DNA of 64,000 nucleotides from Candidatus Saccharibacteria bacterium oral taxon 488 (GTDB lineage: Bacteria; Patescibacteriota; Saccharimonadia; Saccharimonadales; Saccharimonadaceae), in assembly GCA_013099195.1 (NCBI GenBank), contig CP039999.1, positions 62,001-126,000 of the forward strand, read 5' to 3'. Made by a program: the position numbers and the translations under genes. The notes under the pieces are model-generated. The model saw only the letters and a list, made by a program, of their open reading frames with translations. It was not told the DNA's origin and searched no databases. Positions within the stretch are counted from its first letter, which is position 1, and each line of letters opens with the position of its first letter. This document shows, in pieces, positions 8,693 to 60,598 of this stretch.

Positions 8693-8701
8693 GAGCGTCT
8701 T

Positions 8702-9670
8702 ATGCCGGAACTTCCCGAAGTCGAGACGGTTCGCCGCGGGTTGGCGGAGTTACTGCCGGGCCGAGTGGTGGCGCGAGTGGCAGTGTTTGATTCGCCAAAA
8801 AGCTTTCCGAATGCGCCGGCTGATGTTGAACAATTTTTATATGGTGCGCGCGTGACGGCGGTGCGGCGGCGGGCAAAGGTGCTGATGATTGATTTGGATA
8901 CGCATTATTCGCTGGTGGTGCATTTGAAGATGACGGGGCAGCTAGTTTTTCGCCAAAGCTCTCGTCATAGCGCTCGGGTATCCCCAAAAAAATCTCGGGG
9001 CCCACGTAAAGTTGCCCAAGATTTTTTTGCGGATACCGCTCGCGAAATCGACGACTTTGCTGGCGGTCATCCGAACGATAGCTTAATTGGTGCGCTGCCG
9101 GATCGGTCGACGCGGGTGCAGGTTGATTTTGTGGATGGGTCACGGCTATTTTTCAATGATCAACGTAAGTTTGGTTGGGTAAAATTACTGCCGACTGATG
9201 AGGTGAAGAACTTGCCGTTCATGCAAAAAGTTGGGCCGGAGCCGCTTGATCCCAATACACGCGCCGAGGATTTCATCCAGCGGATTCGCCGCCGCCAGAA
9301 TTCGATGATCAAGCCAGCTTTTCTTGACCAGACAGTGATCGCCGGGGTTGGTAATATTTATGCTGACGAGGCGTTGTGGGCGGCGCGGATTCATCCGCAA
9401 ACGCGGGTAAAAAACATCAGCGATCAGCAGCTGAATACATTATTTAACGAGTTGCGGCAAATCTTGCAATTGAGTATTGACCAGGGCGGCTCGACCGATA
9501 AAAATTATGTTGATGCCGAAGGCCGGAAAGGGAATTACCTGACATTTGCTCATGTGTTTCGCCGTGAAGGTCAAGCCTGCCATCGCCACCCCGATCAGGA
9601 GATTATCAAATTGAAAGTCGGCGGTCGCGGTACGCATGTTTGTCCAGTGTGCCAGGTGGAAGTTATATGA
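8702..9670 (+). CDS. mutM: Formamidopyrimidine-DNA glycosylase with in-frame palindromic insertion
   Basis: MutM/Fpg excises oxidised purines such as 8-oxoguanine and nicks the backbone. The mature start PELPEVETVRRGL supplies the catalytic Pro and Glu. HLKMTGQLVFR, NDQRKFGWV, GVGNIYADEALWAA and the C-terminal zinc finger (CHRH then CPVC, so one ligand is probably His) are present. At 322 residues it is about 50 longer than usual. Roughly 34 residues between LVFR and FAGGHPNDSLIG look foreign to the family and coincide with a large DNA palindrome (8946-9070). The frame stays open through it. The stop overlaps holA (ATGA). Confidence 0.94.
   Translation: MPELPEVETVRRGLAELLPGRVVARVAVFDSPKSFPNAPADVEQFLYGARVTAVRRRAKVLMIDLDTHYSLVVHLKMTGQLVFRQSSRHSARVSPKKSRGPRKVAQDFFADTAREIDDFAGGHPNDSLIGALPDRSTRVQVDFVDGSRLFFNDQRKFGWVKLLPTDEVKNLPFMQKVGPEPLDPNTRAEDFIQRIRRRQNSMIKPAFLDQTVIAGVGNIYADEALWAARIHPQTRVKNISDQQLNTLFNELRQILQLSIDQGGSTDKNYVDAEGRKGNYLTFAHVFRREGQACHRHPDQEIIKLKVGGRGTHVCPVCQVEVI
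8946..9070. repeat. Palindromic element inserted in frame within mutM
   Basis: The left arm 8976-8999 (from GGGTATCC to ATCTCGGG) and right arm 9015-9038 (from CCCAAGAT to GGATACCG) are inverted repeats matching at about 21 of 24 positions, around a 15-bp centre. Weaker outer arms (CGCCAAAG and ACTTTGCTGGCG plus TCGTC/GACGA blocks) extend the symmetry to about 8950-9067. The element encodes the extra residues of MutM without breaking the frame, and the opposite strand is also open here. This resembles Rickettsia palindromic elements in size and behaviour; homology to them is not implied. I see no second copy in the window. Confidence 0.7.
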
Positions 9671-17719: not shown

Positions 17720-19837
17720 ATGGCAATTATTAACCCGAGTGGCAAGGAGATTTTTTCGGTTACTACTGAATTATGTGGGCGGCCGTTGACGCTGGAGGTC
17801 AACCGTGTTGGTTTTCGGACGACTGGTAGCGTACTGGTGCGCTATGGCGATACGGTGGTCTTGGGCAGTGCTCAGGTGGGCAGCCGGCCGGTGCAATTGG
17901 ATTATTTCCCGCTGTCGATTGATTATGAAGAACGGTTTTATGCAGCGGGTAAAATTTCTGGCTCGCGGTTTATTAAGCGCGAGGGCCGGCCGAGCGACGA
18001 GGCGGTGCTGATCGGCCGGTTGATCGACCGTCCGATTCGGCCACTGTTTCCAAAGGGCTACCGCCAAGAAGTGCAAGTGGTGGCGACGGTGCTGAGTATG
18101 GATCCGGATTTCCGTCCAGATGTGGTGGCGATGATTGCGGCTTCGAGCGCCTTGATGCTGACTGGGACGCCGTTTGACGGGCCGGTAGCGGGCTTGCGGG
18201 TGGGTCGCGTGAATGGTGAGTTTAAGGCCTTTTTGACGCCAGAGGAACGTGAGCAATCTGATTTGGATTTGGTAGTAGCTGGTATCGAGAGTGGCATCAC
18301 CATGGTGGAAGCTGGTGCCAAGGAGGTATCAGAAGAGGTGATCGTCGATGCCATGGCCTGGGCACACCAGATGATGCAGCCGGCGATTGCTTTGCAGCGA
18401 GAACTGGCGGCCAAAGTGGCGCCAGTCGCGCAGGAATATGAATTAGTTTTACCCGACGAAACAATTCAGCAGACGGCTGATGCGTGGGTTGACGGCAAGC
18501 TGGGCGAGAAAATCCGCCTGCCGTACCCGGAGCGCAACGAAGTGGTTAACGAGATTCGCTGGGCATTTCACGAAGCGATGGCCGAAAAGCTGGGATTGAG
18601 CGCTGAGGAGTATGATGAAGTACGCGACGAGTATGATGAAGCGTTCACGCTGGCGCTACACAAAGATGTCCGCCGCGGGATTGTCGAGGACGGCAAGCGC
18701 CCGGATGGCCGCGCTTTGACGGAAATTCGTCCGCTCAGCTCAGAGGTCGGCTTGCTGCCGCGAGCGCACGGTTCGAGCTTGTTTACTCGCGGCGTGACGC
18801 AGGGTATGAATATTGTCACCCTGGCGCCGCTGAGTTACGCGCAGCTGGTTGATACTATGGAAGTTAACGATGGCGAGCGGCGCTATATGCACCATTACAA
18901 TGCGCCGGGCTATACGGTTGGCGAGGTTAAGCGGATGGGCAGTCCGGGCCGGCGCGAAATTGGTCACGGCTACTTGGCGGAGCGTGCCTTGACGCCGGTA
19001 TTGCCAAGCGAAGAAGACTTCCCGTATGCCATTCGCAGCGTTACCGAAATTATGAGCCAAAACGGTTCAACGTCGATGGCAGCGACCTGTTCGAGCTGTC
19101 TGGCGTTGATGGACGCTGGCGTGCCTCTCTCGGCACCGGTTAGCGGCATTGCTATGGGTCTGATGATGGACGGTGATACGCCGTACATACTAAGTGATAT
19201 TGCCGATGCTGAGGATTTTGCCGGTGATATGGATTTCAAGGTGACTGGTACAGCCAAGGGTATCACGGCGCTGCAGATGGATATGAAAGTGCATGGCTTG
19301 CCGGTGGCAGTGCTGCGCCAAGCGATTGAACAGAGCAAGGCGGGGCGGGCGCATATTTTGCAGCATATGCTAAGCGTACTACCAGCGCCGCGCGAAGCAC
19401 TTAGCCCGTACGCGCCGCGAATTGAAAAGCTAAAGATTGATCCGGATAAAATCGGCGCCGTGATTGGCAAGGGCGGCGAGGTAATCAACAAGATTACCAG
19501 TGAGACTGGTGCTGAGATTGATATTAAGGAAGACGGCCTGATTACCATCGCTAGTCCGAATAGTGAGTCGATTGAGAAGGCACTTGCCTGGATTAAAAGC
19601 CTGGTCGAAGAGCCAGAAGTTGGCAAAATCTACGAAGGCAAGGTCGTCAGTATCAAAGATTTCGGAGCGTTCGTGAATATTCTGCCGGGAGTTGACGGGA
19701 TGGTACATATCTCGAAGCTGGCCGATCACCGCGTGGCTAAGGTGACTGACGTGGTCAAGGAAGGCCAGATGGTTCGAGTAAAAATTACCGGCATCGATGA
19801 GCGCGGTAAGATTAACTTGACGATGATCGGGTTGTAA
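17720..19837 (+). CDS. pnp: Polyribonucleotide nucleotidyltransferase (PNPase)
   Basis: PNPase is the phosphorolytic 3'-5' exoribonuclease of RNA turnover. I start at the ATG at 17720, preceded by AGAGAGGA, giving 705 residues. Two RNase PH domains are present (RYGDTVVLGSAQVG and FIKREGRPSDEAVLIGRLID; then DGRALTEIRPLSSEVGLLPR and GSTSMAATCSSCLALMDAGV with the active-site region), followed by a KH domain (IGAVIGKGGEVINKITSETG) and an S1 domain (GKVVSIKDFGAFVNILPGVD). All domains of the typical bacterial enzyme are kept. RNase J and oligoribonuclease are also encoded in this window. Confidence 0.97.
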   Translation: MAIINPSGKEIFSVTTELCGRPLTLEVNRVGFRTTGSVLVRYGDTVVLGSAQVGSRPVQLDYFPLSIDYEERFYAAGKISGSRFIKREGRPSDEAVLIGRLIDRPIRPLFPKGYRQEVQVVATVLSMDPDFRPDVVAMIAASSALMLTGTPFDGPVAGLRVGRVNGEFKAFLTPEEREQSDLDLVVAGIESGITMVEAGAKEVSEEVIVDAMAWAHQMMQPAIALQRELAAKVAPVAQEYELVLPDETIQQTADAWVDGKLGEKIRLPYPERNEVVNEIRWAFHEAMAEKLGLSAEEYDEVRDEYDEAFTLALHKDVRRGIVEDGKRPDGRALTEIRPLSSEVGLLPRAHGSSLFTRGVTQGMNIVTLAPLSYAQLVDTMEVNDGERRYMHHYNAPGYTVGEVKRMGSPGRREIGHGYLAERALTPVLPSEEDFPYAIRSVTEIMSQNGSTSMAATCSSCLALMDAGVPLSAPVSGIAMGLMMDGDTPYILSDIADAEDFAGDMDFKVTGTAKGITALQMDMKVHGLPVAVLRQAIEQSKAGRAHILQHMLSVLPAPREALSPYAPRIEKLKIDPDKIGAVIGKGGEVINKITSETGAEIDIKEDGLITIASPNSESIEKALAWIKSLVEEPEVGKIYEGKVVSIKDFGAFVNILPGVDGMVHISKLADHRVAKVTDVVKEGQMVRVKITGIDERGKINLTMIGL

Positions 19838-60203: not shown

Positions 60204-60221
60204 TGATGTATAATAATAGGG

Positions 60222-60559
60222 CAGTCTACTAAGCGATCGCTTGGCGGTGAAGCCAAGAGGAAAGTCCGGGCAGTAAAGGACACCGACAGTCGCTAACGGC
60301 GACCGGGGGTAACCCTAGGGAAAGTGCCACAGAAACAAAACTACCTTTGTGGCGATAGACACAAAGGAAAAGGTGAAACGAGTAAGGTAAGAGCTTACAG
60401 TCCTCGGTGGTGACACAGAGGAGAGGTAAACCCTGTCGACTGCAAGGAGGTCTACAAATGAGTTGTCCGCTCGTAGACCGATAACCGCTTGATTTATCTG
60501 GCAACAGGTAAACTAGATAGATGATCGCTCGCGACAGAACCCGGCTTATCGGTAGGCTG
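60222..60559 (+). ncRNA. rnpB: RNase P RNA
   Basis: The catalytic RNA of RNase P matures tRNA 5' ends. P1 forms from CAGTCTAC at 60222 and GTAGGCTG ending at 60559. The conserved P4 region GAGGAAAGTCCGGGC, the ACAGAAA segment, GGTGAAAC and the closing ACAGAACCCGGCTTATC are all in place, a bacterial type A layout. TATAAT at 60209-60214 ends 7 nt before the RNA start, which calibrates the -10 to +1 distance for this organism. A strong terminator follows. Confidence 0.96.
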
Positions 60560-60560
60560 T

Positions 60561-60598
60561 AAACTAAAACCTTCTCTCAGCGGAGAAGGTTTTAGTTT
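60561..60598. terminator. Bidirectional terminator between rnpB and rplT
   Basis: AAACTAAAACCTTCTC (60561-60576) pairs perfectly over 16 bp with GAGAAGGTTTTAGTTT (60583-60598) around a 6-nt loop. It serves rnpB on the plus strand and rplT on the minus strand. Confidence 0.93.

Follow-up and report, generated by a model that had tools for sequence, protein, structure and literature searches.

Inside the coding sequence of mutM in Candidatus Saccharibacteria bacterium oral taxon 488 lies a palindrome, and the question raised by this locus is how a hairpin-forming DNA came to sit in frame in a protein gene, and what kind of element it represents. A preliminary description of the window (i.e. the whole stretch of 64,000 nucleotides analyzed here) had proposed an insertion comparable to Rickettsia palindromic elements (RPEs). 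We conclude that the mutM palindrome is likely to be one copy of a short dispersed in-frame palindromic element of Saccharibacteria housekeeping genes, hereafter family A, which would have spread by copying. The features of the locus are the following (arms and spacer are given without strand):

8702..9670, + strand: mutM (formamidopyrimidine-DNA glycosylase), 322 aa, with the palindrome in frame (ORF, Pfam and PDB Fpg matches)
8954..9055, + strand: codons 85-118 (QSSRH...EIDD), a place at which relatives with an empty site show just a few residues
8961..9055, - strand: the 95-bp palindromic element of family A, which in the orientation of the family model is antisense to mutM
8946..8976: weaker outer left arm, pairing partially with 9038-9070 (fold)
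8977..8999: left inner hairpin arm
9000..9014: spacer between the inner arms, 15 nt
9015..9037: right inner hairpin arm
9038..9070: weaker outer right arm (fold)
8700..9143, - strand: opposite-strand open frame of 147 aa, with no Pfam match and not taken as a gene

Both MutM domains are present in the mutM ORF (Pfam Fapy_DNA_glyco, 1.8e-29; H2TH, 5.2e-26), and the closest named MutM relatives (L001-L004) belong to Candidatus Saccharibacteria, with 56-60% identity. The palindrome coincides with 34 extra residues placed between HLKMTGQLVFR and FAGGHPND. Its inner arms are 23 nt long each, 91% complementary and 15 nt apart; their ungapped inverted-repeat score of 19 is the top score of the 64 kb, compared to at most 17 in 20 Markov shuffles, and a repeat search of the window ranked the pair first of 5. 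Folding of the 125-nt stretch, a check suggested in the preliminary description, gave -51.9 (z -5.7) on the + strand and -58.5 (z -7.6) on the - strand, values matched by none of 200 shuffles on either strand. The earlier claims of a palindrome in frame inside mutM, of a conserved reading frame with an open opposite strand (322 and 147 aa, respectively) and of weaker outer arms, which the fold shows to lengthen the stem, are therefore all borne out. The size proposed, about 120 bp in all, is slightly long, the family-wide element being 95 bp and the net gain relative to empty MutM being 30 residues (322/325 versus 292/295 aa).

As had also been suggested, MutM proteins of relatives were aligned. 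Among the best 120 of 8,000 scored MutM matches, the long form is carried by P0001-P0102, P0095 being four residues shorter. An inner piece of the insert is missing from P0103-P0106 and from P0095, and a remnant of 12 of the 34 residues (Q(S/N)SRHTAREIDD) is left in P0116, P0119 and P0120, as well as in P0121, obtained in a second search. A different insert sequence (SSANNPGPGDKHAQI..), by eye like the peptide of the leuS copies described below, is found in P0107, P0110-P0112, P0114, P0115, P0117 and P0118. The second search also yielded P0122-P0138, which are MutM proteins of empty length (292-295 aa) 90-93% identical to P0116; the 11 of these 17 that were inspected are all empty and read TGQLIFRG..SFAGGHP. 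Ten of these empty proteins, aligned with the window MutM, show 91-95% identity in aligned residues. The residues are also lacking in L001-L005, and L006, whose MutM is 48% identical, carries at the same place a shorter insert of unrelated sequence. Empty mutM sites were found in genomes G394, G395, G396 and G398. To judge from these alignments, the stretch is an insertion and not an ancestral part of mutM.

We then consider the distribution of the element in other genes. A nucleotide search covering 9 genomes of the nearest genus identified copies in mnmA of G111 (82% identity over 82 bp, E 2.5e-14), G116 (80% identity, E 6.9e-12) and G396 (86% over 41 bp, E 3e-6), all three in frame in the loop flanked by ATGHYARV and LLRARD; the remaining matches in these 9 genomes had E >=0.07, and G398 had none. 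Two covariance models were used, R1 built from the window and these three mnmA copies, R2 from all ten copies listed below. R1 was positive in 7 of 198 family-level genomes. R2 recovered the same places in 394 family-level genomes, with 8 genomes at E<=0.001 including a weak match in G422 (E 8e-4); with laxer filters, 8 of 12 chosen genomes were positive at E<=0.1, including a weak match in G395 (E 0.046), and nothing was found in G393, G394, G398 and G312. The model searches (198, 394 and 379 genomes, in overlapping sets) scored the best 21, 10 and 11 candidates per genome, respectively, and weak copies may escape them. In the window, 8961-9055 (- strand) scored 95.6 bits with R1 and 87 bits with R2, the window itself being among the model-building sequences; the + strand is also matched, at 27-29 bits. 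Family A totals 10 copies, in the window and 7 Saccharibacteria genomes:

mutM, 2 copies: window, G116
mnmA, 3 copies: G111, G116, G396
leuS, 3 copies at one site: G333, G396, G397
dus, 1 copy: G229
ABC-F (abcF), 1 copy: G424

These gene names, like those of lepA, tsaD and tatD below, come from reading of the sequences, Pfam having been applied to mutM alone and the MnmA name being source-given for P0139 and P0142. All ten copies lie in frame inside stop-to-stop ORFs, a proportion not unusual alone given an ORF cover of 92-93%. The five host genes are unrelated, and both orientations occur: three copies are sense to the model and seven antisense, the mnmA copy of G116 being inverted compared to those of G111 and G396. 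On reading, the peptides of the ten copies can all be assigned to a single mirror frame, SSE(K/N)N(L/P)G..FSE. Since two to four of the six frames are stop-free in each copy, the choice of frame is partly dictated by stops. The window and the mnmA copies share a well-conserved core around 9000-9014 (minus strand GGGCAACTTTACG.GGG). The peptide encoded over the element by the opposite-strand frame 8700..9143 resembles the MnmA insert of G111, and residues 128-164 of the L152 MnmA match window positions 9058-8948 in tblastn (46% identity, E 3e-4).

Sites without the element were found for several of these genes: mnmA is empty in G398, G229, G394, G333 and both genes of G424, and dus and abcF are empty in G116. 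For abcF, the pieces 64-469 and 566-710 of the G424 protein are directly contiguous in G116 (tblastn). In leuS, G116 shows a different and shorter stretch at the copy site. It is thus not the case that all close relatives of the window carry the same residues and that no other copies exist, since there are empty relatives and nine further copies in related genomes; these nine, in mutM, mnmA, leuS, dus and abcF and all in frame, uphold the working analogy of the preliminary description, in which the element enters protein genes in the manner of RPEs. We consider it very likely that family A is a dispersed coding palindrome. Clear copies number one or two per genome examined, and not many: the 712,890 bases of G116 contain the two known copies and one 17.7-bit match, nothing more. 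The same-site copies in mnmA, and those in leuS, may represent one ancestral insertion each, leaving only about 5-7 independent insertions.

Other stretches accompany the element at some loci. The mnmA gene of G396 (L154/L258) has two adjacent inserts, a stretch (SPVTRSAPRDIFLAEKSSRGAAPPRATR) followed by family A. The first is similar to the stretch that occupies the MnmA loop in numerous proteins bearing the name oral taxon 488 or grouped with it (P0181, P0196, P0202), and a palindromic relative of this first insert ("family B") is present in G395 (L215). The abcF gene of G424 (L202) has about 96 residues more than that of G116, corresponding to family A and a second tandem stretch. About 880 bases before the dus copy of G229, positions 547-618 of L201 give a sub-threshold tmRNA match (26 bits, gathering 47).

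The conservation of the stem was analyzed on the ten-copy alignment, in which 90.3% of 278 stem cells pair and both-side changes occur in 15 of the 28 stem pairs. Cells with both-side changes number 33, versus 11.6 (sd 2.8) in shuffles (0/500) and at most 10 in slid controls, the structure having been derived from this same alignment of related sequences, so that the shuffle figure is not a probability. The fold reaches z <= -3.7 on both strands in 8 of the 10 copies; the weak folders are the mnmA copy of G396 (z -1.0/-1.2) and the mutM copy of G116 (-3.0/-0.6). Stem pairing could be kept because new copies come from paired masters, by conversion of one arm by the other, or by selection on the hairpin.

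These paired stems, with many changes on both sides and strong folds on both strands, would also suit a structured element of mRNA or DNA (attenuator, pause or processing site) whose hairpin is under selection within the coding region, the peptide being incidental. We judge this explanation improbable, as the host genes are unrelated, the orientation relative to the gene differs between copies, MutM proteins 91-95% alike differ in whether they have the element, and the remnant alleles are without the hairpin core. Moreover, no Rfam family was found on the element of the window at gathering score. Lax Rfam searches of the element and three copy loci gave nothing above gathering on the element, only weak miRNA-model matches. 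A terminator scan did not flag the element, which its loop limit of 8 would exclude.

Under the preferred reading, that of a dispersed element, a short DNA without genes of its own would be copied into new places, now or formerly, through MITE-like movement in trans or via a single-stranded hairpin intermediate. Most insertions would be lost, the survivors being those in tolerant loops with a stop-free frame. The inserted copy would be translated as a disordered peptide, and would decay through substitution and in-frame deletion. Mobility through copying of the element is, in our opinion, somewhat favored over another route. A search of the 712,890 bases of G116 with a 20-base arm (<=4 mismatches) returned the known copy and two other places, neither of them a convincing further arm match, and no transposon partner was seen. 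No target-site duplication was visible by eye between the filled window and the empty mutM of G398, two alleles that are too diverged for a firm comparison. A degenerate DNA pattern had 0 matches in viral contigs, and the mutM gene had no match in plasmids. With a strict score, de novo hairpin scanning of G116 found 3 hairpins but, owing to bulges, not family A; a laxer scan, modestly above one shuffle per contig, recovered the mnmA copy.

The MutM loop was also examined in a sample of the order, in which 380 of 392 genomes have a MutM match. The loci fetched, which are the best-scoring ones and thus favor loops with inserts, carry many different inserts across Saccharibacteria. Folding was evaluated for 27 sources (window, L083-L104, L106-L108, L113), from which L107 was dropped as too short; short-loop L105 and L109-L112 were left out. 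With the better strand used for inserts and controls alike, 13 of 26 inserts fold at z < -3 compared to 5 of 104 control stretches of equal length taken from these genes (Mann-Whitney p 1.2e-5), and 11 of 26 remain above z -2. Among the other MutM loci scanned with R1, family A is present in L084 only. The mutM inserts of L108 (G312) and L113 (G397), which have no family A model match, are 58 residues long in the same loop and reach z -5.1 and -4.4 on one strand.

In other Saccharibacteria, the MutM loop and the MnmA loop each also house two further hairpin families in frame. They were set apart from family A by the blank result of R1 in L085-L092, L096 and others, and separated from each other on reading. 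Family C (GGAGGGGCACACCCCTCC.. plus a second hairpin) is found in three mutM genes (G280, G373, G287) and in the mnmA gene of G397. Three more places in G287 (L172, L175, L176) are outside ORFs >90 aa, and L171 (G159) is in a doubtful 137-aa ORF. Family D (GGAATATGGAA..) is found in mutM, mnmA, lepA (L192) and tsaD of G378, in mnmA and tatD (L179) of G114, and in tsaD (L178) of G322; the hairpins of L192, L178 and L179 are in frame in these lepA-, tsaD- and tatD-like genes. L187, L194 and L180 are outside ORFs >90 aa. In 390 kb of G378, 7 of 25 family D places are in ORFs, three being single arms, whereas all 10 family A copies are (Fisher p 1e-4, under slightly different ORF rules). We do not regard all hairpin families as coding elements, the hairpins of G378 being mostly non-coding: 27 of its 30 strong hairpins are outside ORFs or only partly in them.

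The diversity of the MutM-loop inserts, the high proportion of strong folders among them and the low-complexity inserts of L100, L102 and L104 would fit a local origin, in which no mobile element is involved and hairpins arise within tolerant loops through template switching or quasi-palindrome repair. This may hold for some other inserts, but a local origin does not yield the family A sequence in five unrelated genes, and we regard it as very unlikely for the mutM palindrome. Starting again from a dispersed element, a broader picture can be put forward tentatively, with somewhat less than even confidence: Saccharibacteria would harbor a full repertoire of coding palindromes, several families of hairpins, different in sequence, having independently colonized the same few loops of housekeeping proteins (MutM and MnmA, also LeuS, Dus, ABC-F, LepA and TsaD), with pairing kept by selection or arm conversion, and these small host-dependent genomes would repeatedly turn mobile hairpins into protein.

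At the protein level, AlphaFold2 (40 sequences, mean pLDDT 85.9) gives pLDDT <50 only at residues 88-116 of MutM, a predicted loop preceded by a strand at 79-84 and followed by a strand at 118-122. The inserted stretch is thus predicted to be a disordered loop, the remaining fold being modeled with confidence. Codons 85-118 also form the most variable 34-residue stretch (rank 1/288) in the 102 close MutM proteins and the window, with a mean entropy of 0.455 for the insert versus 0.165. A functional, selected MutM insertion (specificity or partner loop), as might be suggested by its intact frame and its retention across many strains (P0001-P0102), is most improbable for a stretch that is the most variable of the protein, predicted to be disordered, absent in close relatives and related to inserts of other genes. 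Elsewhere in the protein, window positions 9578-9652 encode a MutM zinc finger C-x2-H..C-x2-C (CHRH; CYRH in G116), where L001-L005 show C-x2-C.

Family A can be compared with known systems. As described in parts of published work, RPEs and Wolbachia palindromic elements are palindromes of about 100-150 bp that preserve the frame in ORFs of unrelated housekeeping genes (PMC3767692, PMC10969869; RPEs are also characterized in PMC2694212 and PMC6649704). Extracts of the same two papers report tRNA-synthetase and repair genes among the RPE hosts, insertions at the same site in orthologues and different element groups at one locus (PMC3767692, PMC10969869). Family A is likewise a palindromic repeat, of 95 bp (just under this range) and 28 model pairs, dispersed in frame in unrelated genes (mutM, mnmA, leuS, dus, abcF) and missing from orthologues. 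The comparison supports the view that family A works like protein-coding RPEs and is RPE-like in kind; no descent from RPEs is claimed. The differences are that Saccharibacteria are a different phylum, that family A has one or two copies per genome examined versus tens for RPEs (44 in R. conorii, according to an extract of PMC10969869), and that its stems are kept by both-side changes, whereas the Rickettsia elements are said, in a part of PMC6649704, to lose repeat identity over time. A passage on Rickettsia japonica regards the RPE-4, -6 and -7 sites as possible hotspots for insertions of different origins, or the elements as possibly sharing one origin (PMC3767692), and the MutM and MnmA loops raise the same question.

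MITEs and the ERIC, BOX and REP hairpin repeats are also described, in a portion of PMC10969869, as short and palindromic or hairpin-forming, with occasional in-frame fusions. Family A shares these properties, but these repeats are mostly intergenic (as is family D, with 7 of 25 places in ORFs), and family A is in ORFs in 10 of 10 cases. In Nematomorpha mitochondria, palindromes are translated inside genes (an excerpt of PMC6649704); the repeats there are perfect and, as far as that excerpt goes, their arms encode conserved residues, whereas family A provides extra loop residues. Coding palindromes are presented in part of PMC3767692 as a Rickettsia/Wolbachia feature, other bacterial palindromic repeats being mostly non-coding. 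Among the matches listed in a search of mostly open-licence literature, we found no description of such a family for Saccharibacteria or other Patescibacteria, which is weak evidence of its absence from the literature.

The same behavior in Saccharibacteria, a distant phylum with small genomes, suggests a general route from hairpin DNA to protein sequence. The fate of such insertions can be traced, as close MutM proteins include full, partial, remnant and empty alleles. With the changes on both arms, selection on the hairpin can be put to the test against its renewal through copying or conversion.

Some weaker candidates were also encountered. A search of 379 genomes of the phylum gave clear matches only in G111 and G116, and five weak matches (L297-L301) with E values from 2.4e-5 to 0.008, about 4 being expected by chance at E<=0.01 and the best being better than expected. 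These five, like the weak matches in G422 and G395, were not counted as copies. L297 (G601) and L298 (G701) are long palindromes between ORFs, the latter with a fold z of -4.6; their outer arms and A/T tracts look similar to family A, but they are longer and have different centers. L299 is in an open frame of 106 aa and L300 in one of 215 aa, whereas L301 is in none of note. In the 64-kb window there is no second convincing family A copy: a match at 18385-18442 (17.8 bits, E 0.008) was rejected, as it is in a conserved ORF, by reading that of polynucleotide phosphorylase, and has a fold z of -0.7. An over-represented short word (uptake sequence) was likewise discarded, GGTATCC occurring just 3 times on one strand of the window and 4 times on the other. 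Finally, a perfect 16-bp inverted repeat at 60561-60598 overlaps the RNase P RNA gene (60221-60564) at its end and is probably the terminator of that gene.
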